Source: Bolinopsis microptera (lineage: Eukaryota; Ctenophora; Tentaculata; Lobata; Bolinopsidae). From it: DNA of 64,000 nt. The notes below the pieces were generated by a model. It did no database searches. It was not told the DNA's origin and saw only the letters and a program-made list of their open reading frames with translations. This document shows, in pieces, positions 26,518 through 59,211 of this stretch (its first letter is position 1; every line of letters starts with the position of its first letter). The DNA is taken from positions 15,102,983 to 15,166,982 of the forward strand of contig NC_087077.1 of assembly GCF_026151205.1 (NCBI RefSeq), written 5' to 3'. A program made the translations under genes and the position numbers.

Positions 26518-27921
26518 ATGACGTTCCGAAGTGTATCCCTAGACAAACACAACTATTACAGAGCAAAGCACGATGCAGCACCTCTTACCTGGGATAGGAA
26601 CTGTGAGAGTCATGCTCAGAACTGGGCTAACAACCTCCTCAGAACCAACACTTTCGGGCATTCCAGTGACAGGTCAGAGGGAGATCTGTCAATTTGGACG
26701 ACATGCCATCATTAGATATAATATGCCATCATTAGATATAATATGCCATCATTAGATATAATATGCCATCATTAGATATAATATGCCATCATTAGATAGG
26801 GGGTTAATCCTGATGGAAAAGAGTATTATTTGGGAAAAACAATGGAATCTTCATCCTCATACTCCATATCCTAATACTCCACACCTCACAGGAACGATAT
26901 GGGTGAGAATATCTGGGCTTACTACATGACGCGTGGTACGAACACGAAAACAGACGAACAGATGGCTGAGGAGGCTATTAAAGCTTGGTAAGTTAAACTT
27001 CCCTATCTTCTGAAGCCTCCGTTGGGAATTGGGATCACAAGAATGTATTATGAGACAATATAGGACACGAGATTAAATCTAGAAGCGCTAGATGTATAAA
27101 CGGACCGGCTGTAATCCTACAGTGAAACTTCACGGATCAGCTTTGTTTACACTTAAATTTAGAGCTGAGTATTAATGTTTGTGTTCATGTAATATTGTAA
27201 TTGTGATGTTCACTATTTCAATGTAAATTGGAATGTCTATCCTGTCCAGGTTCTGTAAATTACTAACTCGCCCATGCTGTCCAGGTTCTGTAAATTACTA
27301 ACTCGCTATCCTGTCCAGGTTCTGTAACTTACTAACTCGCTATCCTGTCCAGGTTCTGTAAATTACTAACTCGCTATCCTGTCCAGGTTCTGTAAATTAC
27401 TAACTCGCTATCCTGTCCAGGTTCTGTAAATTACTAACTCGCTATCCTGTCCAGGTTCTGTAAATTACTAACTCGCTATCCTGTCCAGGTTCTGTAAATT
27501 ACTAACTCGCTATCCTGTCCAGGTTTTGTAAATTACTAACTCGCTTTGCTGTCCAGGTACGATGAGGTGAAGAAGTACAGCTACATTTTCCCTGGTTTTA
27601 GTAAGAAGACCGGCCACTTCACTCAGGTCGTGTGGAAAGATACCACTAAAGTAGGAATGGCTATTGCTAAGAGTGACGAGAAAGCTTTCATTTGTGCTAA
27701 CTATGGTCCCCAGGTAGGTTTCATTCGGTTCCTTGCCCCAAGTGCCAGTTTGTGAGTTCGTTGATTAGGCGGGAGAGCTAACAGGGTTTGATGTTGCGAT
27801 TGTTATCAAGATATCTGTCTGTTTTCCTGACTAACTCTATAAATTTCAGGGAAATGTCTTGGCTAAAAGTGAGTTCAAGAGGTGCGTGAAACGAAAGAAA
27901 GGAGCTTGTTCCATCATGTAA
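26518..27921 (+). CDS. CAP/SCP-domain protein, GAPR-1 (GLIPR2)-like, four exons
   Basis: Exons 26518-26672, 26892-26987, 27557-27713 and 27850-27921 join in compatible phases to give 159 codons plus stop, close to the ~154-residue GAPR-1 proteins. CAP signatures appear in order: HNYYRAKHDAAPLTWD with the first His; LRTNTFGHS; NDMGENIWAYY with the conserved GEN(I/L)W; then GHFTQVVWKDTTKVGMA, the CAP1 motif; and ICANYGPQGN. There is no signal peptide, which fits the intracellular, membrane-associated GAPR-1 group rather than secreted CRISPs. The gene is bracketed by tandem arrays: (CTAA)n before exon 1, a 20-bp array in intron 1 and a branch-point/acceptor array in intron 2. The start ATG follows an acceptor-like CACACAG closely, so an untranslated upstream exon is likely. 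Confidence 0.88.
26703..26797 (+). repeat. 20-bp tandem repeat in CAP intron 1
   Basis: Five units of about 20 bp containing GCCATCATTAGATATAATAT. It starts 30 bp after the exon 1 donor (GTCAGA at 26673). Confidence 0.9.
27237..27556 (+). repeat. 34-bp array of branch point plus 3' splice site in CAP intron 2
   Basis: Nine 34-bp periods (ten acceptor copies) of GTTCTGTAAAT-TACTAAC-TCGCTATCCTGTCCAG. Each unit contains the exact TACTAAC branch consensus 16 bases before a CCAG|GT. The last copy is the acceptor of CAP exon 3 (exon starts 27557 with GTAC). Copies are almost identical; the exceptions are one CCCATG variant, one AACTTACT variant, one GTTTTG and one TTTG. Confidence 0.93.
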
Positions 27922-47321: not shown

Positions 47322-50300
47322 ATGGGGGTTACGGACTTAAAGCCTGTACTACTAAAGAATGAGATAGATAACGAGGATGACGAGTCGGTAAAGTATTTTA
47401 TGGAATTTTTGCGTTAGACTTATTATTGTTTTTGTATATAACGAATCAATAGTGATAGGAGAAGAATGAAGTAAACATACATCAAAATATCATTTATAGC
47501 TACCTAACTTGCAAGTTAGTTAACCATGGTGACCACGGTTAATAAAACCTTTCGTGACAGCAGTAGGTATTCACGAGCAGTAGGTTATAATCCTATTAGG
47601 TTACATCATAATAGGTGCAACGCAGAATCAGACCAACGACTTCACGAGATAGTGTTAAAAATATATTGATATCCTAGAGTAAAACCTAATCCGTTCTGCT
47701 TGGAAGTCTATGACGTGGCATTTTACCACTCACAATTGAAACACTATCTTGTTAAGTCGTTGGTTAAATTGCTTCTAGCAACCGTGAAAAATCTAATTTT
47801 CACCATAATTGCTTCCTCCTAAACCGAGAGGCGAGACGGGTATGAGTACGTACATTTGAAATGGGTAAATAGATCAGTGCAACAAAGTTTAAATTTGTTA
47901 CATATTTTGTTCTTATTTGTATAGCCTTCTGTTATAGACTGCAAATTGTTATCTAACTTGACTGTGTGGTAAGTAGTAACTCCGTGCAAAGTATGATTAT
48001 TCATACTTTATGCATTATACTTTATGCATTATACTTTATGCATTACTACTTTCTTAAATGACCATGTTTCCCAATGAAATATTATAAACAATCTTACTAT
48101 ATATAAAGCAGAATATTTTATATCTCTGAAGAATGTACAGGGTGAGTTGAAAATAATGTGTGGATTTTAAATGGCTCTAATTTATGAGATAAAATAACAA
48201 ATCACTCTATTTTTGCATATAAATGTACGAAAATTAGAATAATGCAATAAAAATACTAAATAGTCAATAATTTGCTCAAACTGCCAGAGGAGACTGAGCA
48301 TGCGGTCTACAAGCTGTAACGGTGTATAATTTGTTAGAAAACGTTGTATGATAGGCTAGGTATTATTGTATTATAGGCTGCTGGCTGGGTCAACACTCCT
48401 GTAACAGGAAGGATACTTTGCCGAAATGTCCGACACTTATCCAGGCGAAGTACCGAAAACGTTGCACTAATGGTCTGCCACTCTGCAGAATGCTTAGAAA
48501 CAGTTTATTGCTATGATGATACGAGTTCACAGCGTAAAACGTTTGTATCACGTAAATTTGTAGACTTTGTAATTGCTTTTAAGTCTTAAGTAAACTTGCA
48601 TTGTTTATTGATAACACTTCAGTAAACTAATTAGGTGAACAAGTCGCTCCTTTTTGTCTATGACAATATGTTAATTCTTTAATTGTATCTTAGTTTCTAC
48701 AGTTTCATGTGTAGGAAACGTTTAACACGAGTGTGTTTTTTTGGAAAACGTTCGTGTTTGCAACATTTGTTATGTGCTCATACAAGTGACTGAAGGTGAT
48801 CAGGTTAGTTACTACGTTTAGCATTAAATCTAACAAGCGCAGCCCGATCGTCAGCGGCACAAGCTGTATAGAAGCAGTGAACATGGCAAATTGCTCAAAG
48901 TCAAATACAAGGGCCGTCTAGGTATTTGCAACACTCGTTATGTGCTGATACCAGTGACTTATAATAGTGATCGGGTTAGTTACTACGTTTAGCATTAAAT
49001 CTAACAAGCGCAGCCCGATCGTCAGCGGCACAAGCTGTATAGAAGCAGTGAACATAGCAAATTGCTCAAAGTCAAATACAAGGGCCGTCTAGGTATTTGC
49101 AACACTCGTTATTTGCTGATACCAGTGACTTATAATAGTGATCGGGTTAGTTACTACGTTTAGCATTAAATCTAACAAGCGCAGCCCAATCGTCAGCGGC
49201 ACAAGCTGTATAGAAGCAGTGAACATAGCAAATTGCTCAAAGTCAGATACAAGGGCCGTCTAGGTATTTGCAACACTCGTTATGTGCTGATACCAGTGAC
49301 TTATAATAGTGATCAGGTTAGTTACTACTTTTAACATTAAATCTAACAAGAGCGGCACAATCGTCAGCGGCCCAGGGTATAAGCAGTGCTCAGATTAGGG
49401 GCGTCTACAAAAGGGCGACAATATATTTATATGTAACCTTATGACTATAGCACCTGGCCCCATATTCATATTGAAACTACCTGTTACCAGCTGACAAACA
49501 TCCATACATCTGTTGATCAGATATACTGACTATTAAAGATGTAGAATACAGTGGATCCGTTACTTTTATTTTTACCGTGATCACCGCACTGACCTTTTAA
49601 GTTGTTACTTTCCGTGATTTGCTGCATCACTACATTTCGGTTGTAAAATCCGCTTGTAACAAAGGTTAGAGTATATAAATAAGGGAGCGTGAATGTAACA
49701 AAATGTACATGCTGTTTAGAACAGAATGAAGAGTCACTGTAGACCTTCTACCGGCCAAACCTTGTTAACAAAGCCGCAGTCAAGGTTCGGTGAGCGGTAG
49801 ATAAAAGCGCTTAAGGGACATAAGTCAAAGTGGTAAAGCAACATCAGGTAGTGGACATCTTGAGAAATGAGTAGTAGGTAGAATGTAAGGTTGCCTTCAT
49901 AAATCATATTTTTCTCCGATAATAAATTGACATCAAGTCTTGAAAATTATTGGAAGAATCTCGAATAATTTAGTTGCAGCGTAACTAAATTATTCGAGAT
50001 TCTTCTTACATTCTACCTACTACTCATTTCTCAAGATGTCCACTACATGATGTTGCTTTACCACTTTGACTTATGTCCCTTAAGCGCTTTTAACTTATAC
50101 CGTTCACCGAACCTCGACTCCGGCTTTGTTAACAAGGTTTGGCCGGTAGAGGGTCTGCAGTAGTCCCATTATCTTAATATTGCTATACAGTATACAACTG
50201 CTATAGATCAGTTCAATTCATGATATTATGGTTTTAACTGTTAAGATACGGAAAACACTTGTGATTCAATATAATTGCCGTAAAAATTGCCGTGGAACTT

Positions 50301-53300
50301 AACTTTTATCTGTAATATAAGAAATTGGAAGCCAAACGTGAACTATACTCAATTCTTATACACATCAGTTCACGGGAAAAATGATGAGTTGGGAGCCACC
50401 CTGGCAACTCCATAACGGTTTGAAATAAAGTTTCTGGTAAAAATTCAAATTTAGATAGGTTTTAAAAGAAAACTTAGATAGGTTTTTTAAGTATTTTAAT
50501 AACAGAATCGAGTTATCCAGGACCTCTTATGAATGTGTTGATAGAAAATTCTGTCATAATTTTAAACCATTTAATATGTAATATTATAATTTGGTATGTT
50601 AAAGTGTTAACATATGGTCGGTGGATTTATAAAATTGCAGATAAGTTAATAATCGTGGTTAAGTAAATAGTTCTATGCTTTCATTAAAATTAAAATCGTA
50701 ATTTCGCGTATTTTTGTTGGTTTAAGAGGACGTAAGAAGTCCAGAAACGTCCGATTCTCTTTGCTTTTGCCGTTTTAACAATACCTCTAATTGTTAAAAT
50801 TTCTTTGAACCCTTCTGATATAGTGAAGATTCTGGGGAAGAAGAAGAAACACTTCTCGTAATCCCGTACTGTTGAAGATTTATAGGTGAAAGCATCAGGT
50901 TTTCCTTGCTTTTGCAGTTTTAATAAGACTTATTTTATGTGATTTTTTAAGACGTTCATATAGAGGATATGTTGATGGTGGAGTTGGTTCTGCTTTTTTA
51001 ATCATATTATGAAACATGTGGTCCAGCTAGTCCTCTGATCTTTTGATAAGAACAGACAATGTAATGTAATCGTAAGATTGTAATGTCATCTATGATCACT
51101 ATTTGAAACGTAGTAAATAACAAAATATTCGCTATTCTAGCCTTCTAAGACTTTATTGCCACGTATCACAAATCAGCCCATATGCAGAAAAAAGGCAGTC
51201 TGGCATTATAGAATGCCAGAATATTCTGCGAGGAAATTTTGGATTCGAGAGGAAATTGGTGTCAAAGGGGAAATTGTTAAAAGACCTGATTAGAGAATCG
51301 CACCATTTCCGTTATCTCATTATTTTTAAGTTAATCAAAACTTGGCCCATTTGTAATGAAGAATTGATAAAAGAAAGTCCTATTCCGTTCCAGACAATAT
51401 GAATAAGGTTACGACATAATTTTAATGCACTCATCGATATGTTTGAATAAAGTAGTTTGAGTTAGTACCTTATATGATGGATCGTTCCATGAGAGTCACG
51501 CCATTGTCGACGGTACGGTAAATTTGGTCGACCCCTTATTTTTTCTTTTCGCTCTTTACTAGTCAACTTAATCTATTCTAACTTGTGATCTAAGATAGTA
51601 GATACAGTATTTGATAAACGTTACTGTCCGAACAATTTAAGTCCGATATGGTAACTCCAATTATTGCTATATATGTGCAACTTCGTGAAACTGATACCTC
51701 TGTAGTAATGACCTCACTGACCTCTATAATAATTTCTCACAGTCGACGTCGATGGAGCACCTTGAGGTGAAGGAGGTCGATGCCTGGAATGTGGTGGATG
51801 ATGAGCTGGATACTGATAACTTCGAGAAACCTTGGAACGGTGAGATTTCTTATTTTGGGAGAATAATTTGTTGTTTAGTTGTAATTTGGTAAGACAACCA
51901 GTCGACGGTATAATCGGCTGGTTCTGTAAACCTATCACTCTGTTTGTCTGATCAGATGGCTATCGATAAAAGTCTACAAAATATTATTATGGTATTATTA
52001 TGATCAACATATTTCCCCAGAAAAATCAACGAAAGGTAAAGTCATAAAAGTGTTGACATTGGTACTGAAGATGCTCATAGTTCTGGCCAGTCTGTACTTC
52101 TTCATTTGTTCCCTTTCTTTTCTCTCAAGTGCTTTCCAGTTACTCGGAGGAAAATCCGCCGGAGAGGTTAGTAACTCCTTTATAAACTATTTCTTTAACT
52201 TGAACTGCTATTTTTCGCTAAAATCATCTCAATTATCGAATGTAAAATTAATACATTATGCACAGTTAAAAGATCTTCACGCAAACTGTGCCTAATTTGG
52301 TCCCTCAGAAATCAGAGTTGCCGATAAAAGGTTGTTCACATATGACGTAATCAGTAAGGGGGACAGAGGGGTTTCTAATTGATTACGCTTATAGTGTAAC
52401 TTTAACAGAATAGTTATTCGTAAAAATGATTACAGAGGGGGTTAAACAACTGGTATAAAACTGATTACGTAATATAATATGTGAACGACTCTTAAAGTAT
52501 TCTAAATGTCTGATATTATATTCTGTTATGTTATTCAATATTCATTAATTATTCACCTTGATCCTTAAATTTCCGGTATCACATTCAACCCCGTGTAGGT
52601 ATTTGCAAGGAGTAAGATCCTGAACAACCCTATAATCGGACTGATGATAGGTGTTCTAGTGACTGTCCTGGTACAGAGTTCATCCACCTCAACCAGCATT
52701 GTTGTTGCCATGGTTTCAGCTGGAAGTAAGTTAAAAGTTTGTTCGCCCAGATCCACTAACAAAGTGACAACTTTTATTAGATTTGCAAAATCGGACATAT
52801 TTCCAGCGACCATAATTATTGGTTTTATCAACATATCGCGTAATATCGTATAAAATGTTTCCCACGATATTGATAGACGTACAATTCGTACATGTGAGCG
52901 GAAGACAGCCAATCCCTTCTAACACGGATTCTGTACTCACGAACTTATAATTTTGTTTTCTATTTGCATGTGATTTAAACTTTTAAAGCCACAAGTAATA
53001 AAATCTTAACAATATTGTTTTCAGTTGTCCAGCTGAGACCCGCTATTTCAATGGTGATGGGAGCCAACATTGGAACCACTGTGACCAACACAATCGTCAG
53101 TCTTGGTCAGTCCATGGATAGAAAAATGTTTCGACGAGCATTTGGTGGAGCCACAGGTAAGAGCCCGAAAAAAAGTTTTAACAGCTTTATAGCAAGAATA
53201 TCGAAATGAATGAATACATAGTATGCAGTTGGCATAAATTAACACAAATAAAATCTATATTGTAAAGCAAAATTATATTATCCTCAGTACACGATTGCTT

Positions 53301-56300
53301 TAACTGGCTATGTGTGTTTATCTTCCTGCCTCTAGAGGCTGTCCTCCATCCTTTGGAAAAGATCAGCTCAGCCCTGACTCAAGGTAGGTGAAAAATAGAA
53401 AGCATAAAAGTTGGTGTCTCATAATTATTAGTTGTGTCATTGTTGAAAGTAATTGAGAATAAATTAAAGATGCAGGATAAGAAAATGTGGTTTTTATGGG
53501 CCGCCCACAGAGGATTGCACTCTCGGTAGTTGTCATGACGACCTAGAGTGTGTCCCTGTGGAGCACCATCAATCCAGCTTACTTTAACAACAGGTATCAG
53601 CGATGATGACAAAGTCTCTAAACTTGATTTCCTTAAAGTCATAACTAAACCATTAACGAAGACCATAATCGGCATTGAAAAATCCACAATCAAGAACATA
53701 GCCAAGGTAAGTTGCTGGTAAGCAAGGTCTTTATGGTCTCCTCACTAGGTTTCAATGTAAAACTCCTACTTTTGAAAACCAATGCAATCTTCAAGGACCC
53801 CTTTTTAGTACTTGGTTCAATTGCATGCGGAGTATATCATGAAACGTAGTGCGAAGACTATACTGCACCACAGAAACTAAGCCTGTGTTCACACGTATAA
53901 TACAACCTCTTTCAGAACTAGTCGTATTTTAAACGAACATTCTCCTGACATAAGCCCCCCTTTTCAGTACTGCACACAGACAGGCGATCACTACAATATA
54001 TCTAAATGCGGCGGTGCTAGAAATGCTAGCATGATGAAGGCTTGTGATGACAAGTGTGGATACCTTTTTGCTCAAGCAGGCGAGTTACTCCGGGTGATAT
54101 CTATTATTCTATGTTTTTGTATATACTTAGGGAGTCCTGGAGTGTGGCTAGCAGGAGTCACACTCTGTTGGCACGGCGAGAAGGCATCCCTCTTCAATAG
54201 GAGGCCAGAAACCTTGACCAAAACAGAGAGAGAGAGAGAGAGAGAGTTACTCCGGGGACTATGAGCACCGAAACGGAATAGAATAGCTCGAAAAGGACTT
54301 TTAAAGAAGTTCCTTGTTGCAAGTTTAGTACACGACCCAGAAGTGTAATCGATTTAAGGAGTTTATTCAGAGAGGGGATAATATGTCAACAGTATTCCGT
54401 ATGACTCGTCCAAGCCGACAAATTGTGATCTGCAAGTACATACAATGTAATTTTTAACTGGCCTTCTGAATATGATATAACCACTCTCTCTTCAGGTCTT
54501 GGTGATACGACGACTGGTGTAATCTTACTTATTGCCAGTCTCATTCTACTGTGTGTGTGCCTAACTACCCTGGTAAAAACTCTCCAGTCTCTATTGCTGG
54601 GCAGAATGGCTCAGACCCTCAAGAAGCACATCAACTCCGACCTTCCTTCCCCCTTCGGCTGGCTTACCGGGTTAGTCATAAAATAAGTTTTTGATTTATG
54701 ATATGTATGTAAAATGGATGTAAACTGATATTTTATTTACACTAACAACATGAAAATTAAATTTCTTGAGATAATATTTACAAAGTTGATTAAATCCACA
54801 TTCCACGCACGGAGAGATTATTCCACATATTCACATACCAACTCACTGTTCACCACTCACCAGGTATCTGTTTATCTTGGTGGGAACTGGTATGTTATTT
54901 ACATAACAACTCACTGTTCACCACTCACCAGGTATCTGTTTATCTTGGTGGGAACTGGTATGTTATTTACATAACAACTCACTGTTCACAACTCACCAGG
55001 TATCTGTTTATCTTGGTGGGAACTGGTATGTTATTTAAATAACAACTCACTGTTCACCACTCACCAGGTATCTGTTTATCTTGGTGGGAACTGGTATGTT
55101 ATTTACATAACAACTCACTGTTCACAACTCACCAGGTATCTGTTTATCTTGGTGGGAACTGGTATGTTATTCACATAACAACTCACTGTTCACAACTCAC
55201 CAGGTATCTGTTTATCTTGGTGGGAACTGGTATGTTATTTACATAACAACTCACTGTTCACAACTCACCAGGTATCTGTTTATCTTGGTGGGAACTGGTA
55301 TGTTATTTACATAACAACTCACTGTTCACAACTCACCAGGTATCTGTTTATCTTGGTGGGAACTGGTATGTTATTTACATAACAACTCACTGGTCACAAC
55401 TCACCAGGTATCTGTTTATCTTGGTGGGAACTGGTATGTTATTTACATAACAACTCACTGTTCACCACTCACCAGGTATCTGTTTATCTTGGTGGGAACT
55501 GGTATGTTATTCACTTAACAACTCACTGTTCACAACTCACCAGGTATCTGTTTATCTTGGTGGGAACTGGTATGTTATTTACATAACAACTCACTGGTCA
55601 CAACTCACCAGGTATCTGTTTATCTTGGTGGGAACTGGTATGTTATTTACATAACAACTCACTGTTCACCACTCACCAGGTATCTGTTTATCTTGGTGGG
55701 AACTGGTATGTTATTTACATAACAACTCACTGGTCACAACTCACCAGGTATCTGTTTATCTTGGTGGGAACTGGTATGTTATTCACATAACAACTCACTG
55801 TTCACCACTCACCAGGTATCTGTTTATCTTGGTGGGAACTGGTATGTTATTTAAATAACAACTCACTGTTCACCACTCACCAGGTATCTGTTTATCTTGG
55901 TGGGAACTGGTATGTTATTCACATAACAACTCACTGTTCACAACTCACCAGGTATCTGTTTATCTTGGTGGGAACTGGTATGTTATTCACATAACAACTC
56001 ACTGTTCACAACTCACCAGGTATCTGTTTATCTTGGTGGGAACTGGTATGTTATTCACATAACAACTCACTGTTCACAACTCACCAGGTATCTGTTTATC
56101 TTGGTGGGAACTGGTATGTTATTCACATAACAACTCACTGTTCACCACTCACCAGGTATCTGTTTATCTTGGTGGGAACTGGTATGTTATTTACATAACA
56201 ACTCACTGTTCACAACTCACCAGGTATCTGTTTATCTTGGTGGGAACTGGTATGTTATTCACATAACAACTCACTGTTCACCACTCACCAGGTATCTGTT

Positions 56301-59211
56301 TATCTTGGTGGGAACTGGTATGTTATTCACATAACAACTCACTGTTCACAACTCACCAGGTATCTGTTTATCTTGGTGGGAACTGGTATGTTATTCACAT
56401 AACAACTCACTGTTCACAACTCACCAGGTATCTGTTTATCTTGGTGGGAACTGGTATGTTATTCACATAACAACTCACTGTTCACCACTCACCAGGTATC
56501 TGTTTATCTTGGTGGGAACATGGTATGTTATTCACATAACAACTCACTGTTCACCACTCACCAGGTATCTGTTTATCTTGGTGGGAACTGGTATGTTATT
56601 CACATAACAACTCACTGTTCACCACTCACCAGGTATCTGTTTATCTTGGTGGGAACTGGTATGTTATTTACATAACAACTCACTGTTCACAACTCACCAG
56701 GTATCTGTTTATCTTGGTGGGAACTGGTATGTTATTCACATAACAACTCACTGTTCACCACTCACCAGGTATCTGTTTATCTTGGTGGGAACTGGTATGT
56801 TATTTACATAACAACTCACTGTTCACCACTCACCAGGTATCTGTTTATCTTGGTGGGAACTGGTATGTTATTCACATAACAACTCACTGTTCACCACTCA
56901 CCAGGTATCTGTTTATCTTGGTGGGAACTGGTATGTTATTCACATAACAACTCACTGTTCACCACTCACCAGGTATCTGTTTATCTTGGTGGGAACTGGT
57001 ATGTTATTCACATAACAACTCACTGTTCACAACTCACCAGGTATCTGTTTATCTTGGTGGGAACTGGTATGTTATTCACATAACAACTCACTGTTCACAA
57101 CTCACCAGGTATCTGTTTATCTTGGTGGGAACATGGTATGTTATTCACATAACAACTCACTGTTCACAACTCACCAGGTATCTGTTTATCTTGGTGGGAA
57201 CTGGTATGTTATTTACATAACAACTCACTGTTCACCACTCACCAGGTATCTGTTTATCTTGGTGGGAACTGGTATGTTATTTACATAACAACTCACTGTT
57301 CACCACTCACCAGGTATCTGTTTATCTTGGTGGGAACTGGTATGACCATTCTAGTACAGAGCAGCAGTGTATTTACGTCAGCACTAACACCTCTAGTTGG
57401 ACTGGGTGTTATTAGTCTCGACAGGATGTACCCCCTCACTCTTGGAAGCAACATAGGTAAGCAATAAGCATGCTCATGTACCCCTTCACTCTTGGAAGCA
57501 ACATAGGTAAGCATGTTTATTGCTGGCGGACTTACAGGGACAATTGTAGAATTGATCATCATTCAAGTTGACTTGGAAATTGGCACACACCCTAATTTCT
57601 AGGGCTCTTAGTTCTTACTAATTCGCTCGCCCAAAAATTTCACGTAACTTTGGTTTTTATGGTTTTGCAGCAGTACAAAACGGTTGTACATAAACCCTAT
57701 TACCAACCCTAACCCTAGTCCCTAACCATAACACCGAAGCTATTTATAACCCGTACCACAACCCTAACCCTAACCTGAGCCCTAAACAATCGAATTCATG
57801 TTTTACTAGCCTGTCACGTGACCAAAACGGTTTTTTGCCCATAACTCTCCAGGGAAGCATTTTTACCCTACGTCATGGGGGTGATTCGGAATCAGCGTCC
57901 AAAAATACACCGATTAAAATCAACTTCATACCCAAAGGGCCTTTTCACAAGAATTTTCTTAAAATTTGGGCGAGCGATTTAGTAGGAGCGAATTTCTAGA
58001 CATATCTTATTGCTTATTTCCACAGTCCAAGAAAGCAAGAACGCTGCCCTAGAATATCCGTTTAATGAACAGAATTGCTTTTCCACGTATCCTAATCGAG
58101 CGATAACAGGTAAAGAGGACTGACTCTTCTTAATTTAGGTACCACGTGCACTGCAGTTCTGGCAGCTTTGGCAGCGACTGGAGACAAACGATCTGTCACT
58201 ATACAAGTTGCTGTAAGTCTCGACAAATTCCATAACAGTTATACTTTTGCTTTTGACTTTTCAGATTACTCACAGCATATTTTCAAAATATCAACTATGT
58301 ATAACGTCGTTAGTGTACACTGTACATAAAGCTTTATCCAAGCGTGTTCGTTGAAATGGTTGATGAATAATGGTGGTTCGTACGATTTGTATCATCTATA
58401 ATCAAATTAAAATCCTTTCTTCACTCAGATCTCACATCTGCTGTTCAACATCTTTGGTATCCTCGTTTTCTACCCTGTTCCTTTCATGAGGACCATTCCG
58501 ATTAATTTTGCCAAGATGCTGGGAAACACCACTGCTGACTACAGGTGATTGACAGTGCCACCTTTCTGGAATCGGACTATTTTACATTTTAAAATAATAT
58601 AAAATAACAGTTGCATAAGTATCACTGATTGTTGTCATAAGACAGCAGGTAAGTTTTTTGGTGATCACAATACTGACTATAACTATTTTCAGATGGTTTG
58701 CCATACTCTACCTAATAGTAGTATTCTTGTTGATGCCAATGCTCTTCATTGCCCTGTCCTTCAGTCTGCCTCTCCTCTACGTGGTTATCACACTTATTAT
58801 TGCTGCTATCCTCTTCATTACTATTCTCAACATTCTCCAGGATAAAATTCCCGAAAAGTAAGTTCAAATTTCGTATTACAACTAAATAACCTGATGAAAT
58901 TGTAAGTTTAAAGTTCTATTACAGTACATTATCGGCTAGCCGGGTTCAAGGAATCCTCTCGATCTTTAAGGTATGCGCTATTCTCAACGGCTTCCGCATT
59001 CCATAGCTATTACTATCCGAGACTAAAATTTAACCGCTCCGTTTTTGTCAGGCTGCCAGAATTTCTCCGAACCTGGGACTTCCTTCCCAAGCCAATGCGC
59101 TCTCTGGAACCCTACGATTCGGTTCTCTCAAAACTTATCTGCTGCCGGAAATCTGTCGACGATGCTGATGTGATTCCGTTATCAGTGGTAGCTAAAACTA
59201 ATCCAGTGTGA
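47322..59211 (+). CDS. SLC34 family sodium-dependent phosphate cotransporter (NaPi-II type), 14 exons
   Basis: Exons 47322-47387, 51743-51839, 52021-52166, 52599-52725, 53025-53156, 53288-53383, 53594-53706, 53968-54079, 54496-54670, 57314-57456, 58139-58212, 58429-58544, 58693-58857 and 59052-59211; phases all agree, giving 573 residues. Both inverted repeat signatures of the family are present: [16 protein letters not shown] in exon 4 and [17 protein letters not shown] in exon 10, each followed by GANIGTT / GSNIGTT. The first membrane span contains [20 protein letters not shown]. The loop exon 8 is Cys-rich with N-glycosylation sites (NIS, NAS), as in the family's large extracellular loop. 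The C-terminus has [12 protein letters not shown] and MRSLEPYD. Role: secondary active Na+/phosphate uptake at the plasma membrane. Exon 1 (22 codons) is least certain. Intron 8 uses a GC donor; intron 9 is almost entirely a 68-bp array. Confidence 0.9.
48755..49380 (+). repeat. 171-bp tandem repeat, about 3.7 copies
   Basis: The period is exactly 171 bp between the ACCAGTGACTTATAATAGTG landmarks at 48950, 49121 and 49292. The two central copies are nearly identical; the outer edges are diverged. Each unit has GCGCAGCCCGATCGTCAGCG and TACAAGGGCCGTC. No ORF. Confidence 0.9.
49738..50160. mobile_element. Foldback MITE with 150-bp arms
   Basis: Left arm 49738-49890 and right arm 50005-50160 are inverted copies (ends GTAGACC-TCTACCGGCCAAAC). 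Between them is a second perfect 23-bp hairpin (49953-50005, arms GAAGAATCTCGAATAATTTA). About 420 bp overall. No clear TSD. It lies within SLC34 intron 1. Confidence 0.85.
54080..54081 (+). other. Non-canonical GC 5' splice site (SLC34 intron 8)
   Basis: Exon 8 ends CAAGCAG and the intron begins GCGAGT. The codon phase (1) joins exon 9 to give the family sequence ..[15 protein letters not shown].. . No alternative GT nearby preserves the frame, so this is a GC-AG intron. Confidence 0.8.
54095..54243 (+). mobile_element. Short retroposon-like insertion beside the GC donor
   Basis: A 149-bp segment flanked by a perfect 13-bp duplication GAGTTACTCCGGG (54082-54094 and 54244-54256) and ending in an (AG)n tract. 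TSD plus simple-repeat tail is SINE-like. No clear tRNA A/B boxes, so the class is uncertain. It landed one base after the GC of the 5' splice site, so the first copy of the TSD now supplies the donor-side intron sequence. Confidence 0.65.
54829..57344 (+). repeat. 68-bp tandem array repeating the exon 10 splice acceptor, 37 copies
   Basis: Unit: the intron end (CAACTCACTGTTCAC then CACTCACCAG) plus the first 31 bases of exon 10 (GTATCTGTTTATCTTGGTGG...GGTATG) plus a TTATT(T/C)ACATAA linker. From the CACCACTCAC landmark at 54851 to the true acceptor copy at 57301 there are 36 periods of 68 bp plus two 1-bp insertions. Variation is confined to a few intronic positions; the exon-like part is invariant except for two ACATGG copies. 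The array fills almost all of SLC34 intron 9. Only the last copy reads on into the full exon. Confidence 0.96.
57426..57514 (+). repeat. Tandem duplication of the exon 10 end and its 5' splice site
   Basis: A 50-bp unit containing ATGTACCCC(C/T)TCACTCTT, GGAAGCAACATAG and the donor GTAAGC occurs at 57426 and again at 57476. Donors are at 57457 and 57507. Use of the second donor would put TAA in frame soon after the first junction. Confidence 0.9.
57603..57990. mobile_element. MITE with 9-bp TSD, copy 2 (TTAGGG-bearing family)
   Basis: A 388-bp element, inverted relative to copy 1 at 343-741. The perfect 9-bp TSD is AATTTCTAG (57594-57602 and 57991-57999). It contains CCCTAACC repeats at about 57700-57785 and one arm of the copy 1 palindrome. 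Inserted in SLC34 intron 10. Confidence 0.87.
58925..58970 (+). other. Possible alternative cassette exon of SLC34
   Basis: 46 bp bounded by TTCTATTACAG and AAG|GTATGC, between exons 13 and 14. The constitutive join 58857/59052 gives the conserved C-terminus. Inclusion changes frame but stays open through the segment and through most of exon 14 in another frame, giving a different C-terminal tail. It could equally be a fossil splice-site pair. Confidence 0.35.

Follow-up and report, generated by a model that had tools for sequence, protein, structure and literature searches.

What does it mean when the gene for a conserved transporter carries the 3' splice site of one of its introns, together with the start of the following exon, 37 times in succession? 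The question is raised by a stretch of 64,000 nucleotides from the genome of the ctenophore Bolinopsis microptera (C6:15102983-15166982, hereafter the window), the whole of which was analyzed together with the 264,652,675 bases (232 contigs) of the searched genome. A first reading, made from the letters and their open reading frames (the sequence-only reading), had described the array and related it to intron gain by AGGT tandem duplication and to recursive splicing, at a copy number that was called unusual.

A splice-site minisatellite in an SLC34 gene

The gene that carries the array could be rebuilt with an intact reading frame of 557 residues plus stop, running through 14 exons in a single frame (Table 1). 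Its full-length product contains two stretches of the Pfam domain Na_Pi_cotrans (PF02690, E 9e-32), which establishes the membership in the SLC34 transporters that the sequence-only reading had proposed, and the part encoded by exon 9 resembles zebrafish SLC34A2a structures (E 4.4e-12). Inclusion of a further 46-nt exon, at position 58925, was considered and rejected because it broke the frame. Several further features of the gene were observed. Intron 8 appears to start with GC (CAG/GCGAGT, window 54079-54080; here and below a slash marks the junction) and would then be a GC-AG intron, while intron 1 contains a 171-bp array of 3.6 copies (window 48757-49371) and a long inverted repeat (window 49740-50160), by eye perhaps a small DNA transposon.

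The minisatellite at the boundary of intron 9 and exon 10 was reported by TRF with a period of 68 and 37.0 copies (97% matches, score 4722). Direct parsing of the same stretch gave 37 acceptors of the form CACCAG/GTATC between positions 54864 and 57314, spaced by 68 nt in 34 of the 36 intervals and by 69 nt in the other two, the one-base insertions being limited to units 25 and 34. Copy number, period and content of the unit, a 3' splice site with 31 exon bases, were thus confirmed by two methods. Two details of the earlier description apply to part of the array: the acceptor stretch CACTCACCAG, which had been given for every unit, is present in 18 of the 37 while the other 19 read AACTCACCAG, and the second donor-like site, ACTG/GTATGT, is found in 34 units, two others carrying CATG/GTATGT and the last one GTATGA.

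Ignoring the one-base insertions, the units belong to eight types that follow each other in mixed order, as in real arrays; the 95-copy array of a paralogous gene, described below, contains 19 types. Adjacent units are no more alike than shuffled ones in the SLC34 array of the window (p 0.27) and are more alike than shuffled ones in the 95-copy array (0/5000 shuffles). All substitutions in the 37-copy array are intronic, with 7 of 37 intron columns variable as against none of the 31 exon columns (p 0.013), a difference that shrinks to 5 of 37 (p 0.058) if unit 1, which is divergent, is left out. The substitution-free exon part could mean constraint. Since the 95-copy array leans the opposite way (3/24 versus 9/31 variable columns, p 0.19), we treat this invariance as drift. 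The array as such is far beyond chance. A genome search that skips very common words returned no second match to it, and hence no second haplotype of the locus. Folding of three units as RNA paired the acceptor region with the exon start (z of -1.8, -1.9 and, for unit 1, -2.9); a hairpin that would discriminate between the copies was ruled out, the true unit folding alike.

The array has the form of the 'mirages' known from amphioxus, tandem units lying across an exon-intron boundary, each here with 37 nt of intron and 31 nt of exon, and the coding sequence being unaffected, the intact 14-exon frame running through the last copy. A second and much shorter duplication was found on the far side of exon 10, at its donor (Table 1). 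Birth of intron 10 from this duplication of its own donor was rejected by eye, the acceptor side of the intron (CTTAATTTAG) being unlike the duplicated stretch and GTAAGC being present already in both copies.

Table 1 Coordinates of the features discussed (window positions unless a locus is named)
Feature	Position	Strand	Basis or remark
SLC34 coding region with 14 exons and 13 introns (148-4355 nt)	47322..59211	+	Gene rebuilt from sequence
SLC34 exon 9, ending ACCGG/GTTAGT, phase 2	54496..54670	+	
68-bp x 37 minisatellite; unit = last 37 nt of intron 9 + 31 nt at the start of exon 10	54828..57344	+	TRF and parsing
SLC34 true exon 10; start within array unit 37, end AACATAG/GTAAGC	57314..57456	+	
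2-copy duplication at the donor end of exon 10 (final ~31 nt of exon + donor GTAAGC), period 50; donor mirage	57426..57512	+	TRF gave no call
CAP-family acceptor mirage, 34 bp x 9.4; ten TGTCCAG/GT copies, last = true acceptor	27237..27558	+	
CAP-family exon directly after the array	27557..27713	+	Upstream exon 26892-26987
C5 SLC34 paralogue, exon 13 acceptor array, 55 bp x 95 copies, 5.2 kb	L012:8254-10000 + L015:1-3479		Acceptors C5:4286276-4291446

Earlier acceptors lead to stop codons

From any of the 36 earlier acceptors of the array, a stop is met before exon 10 has been read to its end, in keeping with the proposal that the copies are near-identical decoys of which only the last yields the full exon. 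The length of the added peptide had been given as 12 residues; the stop is indeed reached, and copy 1 adds 19. Judged by the reading frame, the last acceptor is predicted to be the one that the full SLC34 protein requires, and yet the score of 17 decoys equals that of the true acceptor when 20 intron bases before and 3 exon bases after the junction are compared. The same pattern was observed at three other acceptor arrays (94/94, 9/9 and 2/2 decoys), so that 141 of the 141 AG-bearing decoy acceptors tested lead to stops.

At donors, the frame argument is weaker. Among 40 decoy donors in six genes, 31 meet a stop, three shift the frame and six would give an open in-frame insertion, the latter confined to two loci (three of four decoys in L057 and three of nine in L128). 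At donor mirages it is the first donor that agrees with the domain, contrary to what nearness across the intron would give, and at the acceptors nearness to the upstream donor would choose the first copy.

Arrays on the splice sites of other genes

A paralogous SLC34 gene was identified on C5, where its 5' and 3' halves are 70 kb apart and were taken as one gene. Its intron 9 interrupts the same codon in the same phase as intron 9 of the window gene, and the acceptor of its exon 10 also lies in an array, of 4.9 copies of a 31-bp unit that is unrelated to the unit in the window and extends about 4 nt into the exon; the decoys there read CAAG at the site, with the AG displaced by one. A far longer array covers the acceptor of its exon 13 (Table 1), with AG retained in 95 of 95 copies, a consensus of CATCAG/ATGGTTTGC and a junction, CATCAG/ATGG, that lacks AGGT. 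Three further observations concern this gene and its surroundings. Intron 10 of the window gene (window 57457-58138) is missing from the paralogue, by gain or loss; an interstitial CCCTAA array of 65 copies is located nearby (L012:2050-2447); and a small contig, C20 (L013, L014), repeats the 5' half of the paralogue with many short A/T homopolymer repeats, perhaps as a poor second haplotype.

Mirages were also found in genes of other families. In the window itself, the acceptor array of a CAP-family gene overlaps its exon by only about 2 nt. In kinase loci, exon end and donor are repeated five times (L057), three times (L060) and twice (L054). In a homeobox gene on C10 (L097:265-1017), approximately 20 further copies of the exon end with GTAAGT fill 93% of a 771-nt intron, roughly 28 of the 35 nt of each unit being exonic. 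Two copies of another homeobox gene on C6, about 100 kb apart on opposite strands and possibly paralogues, carry five (L078) and two (L077) exact copies of one donor motif, and in L077 a 21-bp array begins exactly at the donor, with the decoys further out. Ras-family loci contributed acceptor mirages in L116 and L103/L104 and donor mirages in L101, L126 and L128, the donor being lost from the second copy in L101 and L126 (GT changed to AT in L126).

Counting L103/L104 and L077/L078 once each, and including the SLC34 array of the window, we distinguish 15 mirage events, six at acceptors and nine at donors. Their periods of 68, 55, 50, 34, 31, 35, 53, 40 and 11 are not multiples of three, whereas 33 and 54 are. 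The description as unusual does not hold for this genome, in which similar arrays, most of them shorter, occupy donors and acceptors in other genes. Apart from the arrays, the kinase and Ras-family matches include tandem clusters at C11:1438036-1806000 and C1:12425539-12459122, most members of which span the domain in one open frame, and no Hox-class homeodomain was recognized among the best 30 of 111 homeobox matches.

How often arrays coincide with splice sites

To avoid a count led by the arrays themselves, exon edges were defined as the ends of truncated domain hits and chosen before the sequence was read. The sample was drawn from 30 kinase loci (37 of the 136 matches listed), 20 homeobox loci (from 111 matches), 33 loci for Ras (34 of 151 reported matches) and 7 for CCT (13 of 35); in near cases, whether an array spanned the site was judged by eye. 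Spanning arrays were found at none of 50 kinase edges, with an array at most 15 nt away at two of them, at 2 of 23 homeobox edges (L078 and L082, leaving out L077 with its displaced decoys and L089, where the array starts at the donor), at 6 of 68 Ras edges and at none of 25 CCT edges. Pooled, 8 of 166 pre-chosen edges (4.8%, 95% interval 2.1-9.3%) lie within spanning arrays, or 12 of 166 (7.2%) if four doubtful edges are added at which a short array touches the site (L107, the L116 donor, L124 and L137). Additional edges gave 2 of 19 in the SLC34 paralogue and, for the other edges of the window SLC34 gene, 1 of 25 (the one without a TRF call).

For comparison, arrays cover 13325 of 204305 bases (6.5%) outside the domain hits, a background that is mostly, not wholly, non-coding, in which some homeobox loci are near-copies of one another and for which the period cut-offs varied slightly (minimum of 10 or of 8). 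The kinase loci contribute 2445/41400 bases, the homeobox loci 5409/83970, the window minus the SLC34 exons and the array under study 4400/59840, and the Ras and CCT loci 1071/19095; the C5 SLC34 loci (6992/42002 in arrays) were excluded, being dominated by the 95-copy array. The edge rate does not differ from this background (binomial p 0.53). Within the exons of the kinase domain, arrays cover none of 15138 nt. Splice sites are thus neither clearly targeted nor spared by arrays, at a rate that is rough because the kinase and CCT samples (0/50 and 0/25) differ from those of the Ras and homeobox families. The presence of arrays with unrelated units on the acceptors of the same exon in both SLC34 genes is, under random placement, a coincidence of a few per cent.

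Origin and persistence of the array

We consider it likely that the SLC34 array is a mirage minisatellite that arose by tandem duplication, is tolerated through exon definition and has no special origin. A special origin is not needed since minisatellites are common in this genome and lie on splice sites about as often as in other DNA that is mostly non-coding. The array would have started with one tandem duplication that reached from intron 9 to 31 nt inside exon 10 and would then have grown to 37 copies, probably by slippage or unequal exchange. Because the exon-side copy remained whole, the coding sequence would have stayed unchanged, the other 36 copies persisting in the intron as decoy acceptors. 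On the simplest reading, arrays would more generally arise regardless of splice sites, those that change the protein being lost and those with a whole boundary copy on the exon side being retained.

The decoys would be harmless, or nearly so, if splice sites are chosen by exon definition, as is probable. The acceptor that should then win is one from which a good donor follows within the length of a normal exon; in the SLC34 array this is the last copy. By the same reasoning, the first copy should win at donor mirages. Pairing of sites across the exon would be a single rule for the acceptor and the donor sides, as far as the reading frames indicate.

Alternative explanations

A regulatory array, by which some transcripts would use one of the 36 decoys, gain a stop and be degraded, array length thereby adjusting the output of SLC34, seems unlikely. 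Several features of the locus are what such a device would be expected to have: the acceptor core is intact in 37 of 37 copies, 17 decoys equal the true site in score, a stop follows every decoy, the exon part of the unit is without substitution and the homologous acceptor of the paralogue has an array too. However, like arrays are present on donors as well and in genes unrelated to SLC34 (homeobox, kinases, Ras, CAP), which looks more like a habit of the genome than a device of a single gene, and the splice signal has been lost in decoys elsewhere (L126, L101 and the exon 10 acceptor of the paralogue). Some fraction of transcripts may nevertheless use a decoy, which would be compatible with the sequence.

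Active recruitment of minisatellites to splice sites, for example by DNA breaks formed during transcription, we regard as quite improbable. The idea is suggested by some arrays with one end exactly on a splice site (L089, L077 and the CAP array) and by the arrays at the exon 10 acceptor of both SLC34 genes, but it is opposed by the edge count, in which 8 edges of 166, or 12 with the doubtful ones, stand against a cover of 6.5% elsewhere.

Intron gain in progress or recursive splicing, the interpretation favored by the sequence-only reading, would make each unit a 68-nt (or 42-nt) intron that is removed stepwise, in line with the AGGT duplication model. AG/GT is found at each junction, ACTG/GTATGT recurs in 34 units, and potato provides a documented case of an intron gained from a duplication that crosses an intron-exon boundary (PMC4974935). 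We nonetheless hold this interpretation to be very unlikely. Intron 9 has the same position and phase in the paralogue, though the array there is unrelated, and is therefore older than the array; and the 95-copy array, with its junction of CAG/AT, expanded without AGGT, from which it follows that AGGT does not drive the expansion. Moreover, intron 9 is in phase 2 (ACC GG/G TAT CTG, translated T-G-Y-L), and in this frame the AG/GTATC at the junction is a by-product of the Gly-Tyr codon pair and not the sign of a proto-splice site. Stepwise removal would demand introns of 68 or 42 nt in a gene whose introns measure at least 148 nt, and the donors involved score poorly, on the weak evidence of a small PWM of hand-listed donors, the regenerated CGG/GTATCT exceeding only 2 of 32 donors and ACTG/GTATGT only 3 of 32. 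The shared intron and the AGGT-free array are the strongest of these points, the donor scores the weakest. Some mirages in this genome may have become introns, as in potato, although none was seen in the loci examined.

An assembly artefact is scarcely credible: long near-identical arrays are difficult to assemble, and the copy number itself may be off, but variant units occur in mixed order, only units 25 and 34 have a one-base insertion, and like arrays of just 2-5 copies are present elsewhere.

Implications for splice-site choice

Ctenophores are held to be the sister lineage to all other animals. Returning to the mirage minisatellite tolerated through exon definition, we tentatively propose, with a confidence somewhat short of even, that about 5% of the splice sites in this ctenophore may lie in arrays of their own copies, that with few exceptions only the exon-proximal copy can give the protein and that, if RNA confirms this, strict exon definition would be older than the bilaterian shift. 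That shift has been assigned to bilaterian ancestors in a study of 65 species, in which the exon-skipping values reported are higher for cnidarians and for the ctenophore Mnemiopsis and lower for sponges and for Trichoplax (PMC6142364). If true, the proposal would amount to a natural experiment over many genes and to strict exon definition in the lineage sister to other animals.

With near-identical decoys in tens of copies, at the donors and acceptors of different genes, it can readily be tested how the spliceosome decides between sites of equal quality: nearness across the intron predicts the first acceptor and the last donor, and exon definition the opposite. The choice among copies can be addressed without new experiments, since RNA-seq and Iso-Seq reads of Bolinopsis microptera exist (PMC10232365).

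Comparison with known systems

In searches of the open-licence literature, no related report of ctenophore minisatellites was found, and a term search of a paper on ctenophore chromatin loops (PMC12221973) returned no mention of tandem repeats or minisatellites. As far as that literature shows, what is new is the group of animals, the copy numbers (37 and 95) and the rough rate; within the same bounds, mirages are extended from lancelets to a second, distant group of animals, with a first rough rate that matches random placement.

In the human gene IFI6 (6-16), a minisatellite with multiple splice donor sites resembles the SLC34 array in that its units carry splice sites, there usable ones (Turri 1995, as cited in PMC4526556); it differs from the SLC34 array in being on the donor side and in that downstream units are reported to be used as donors, giving three mRNA species (PMC4526556). 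The RdRp intron of potato derives from a duplicated stretch made up, as in the SLC34 array, of the 3' end of an intron and the start of the next exon, but the duplicate is spliced there as a new intron, of which the sequence of the SLC34 array gives no sign (PMC4974935). The AGGT model of Rogers, as described in the same source, shares with our array the AG/GT in each unit; in SLC34, however, the unit is an old intron-exon boundary and not an exonic proto-splice site, and the sister array is without AGGT.

The closest likeness is to the amphioxus mirages in Adh3, the globins BflGb6 and BflGb9, PGBD5 and troponin C, which are minisatellite-like duplications across a boundary, occur at 3' or 5' splice sites, keep the exon-side copy intact and have AG/GT in many units (PMC3087553, PMC3902484). 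Adh aside, the copy numbers given there are 2-7, compared with 37 and 95 in Bolinopsis. Regular splicing has been reported for the amphioxus mirages (PMC3087553, PMC3902484), whereas those of Bolinopsis are known from genomic sequence, and it is for the latter that a rate per exon edge has been estimated.
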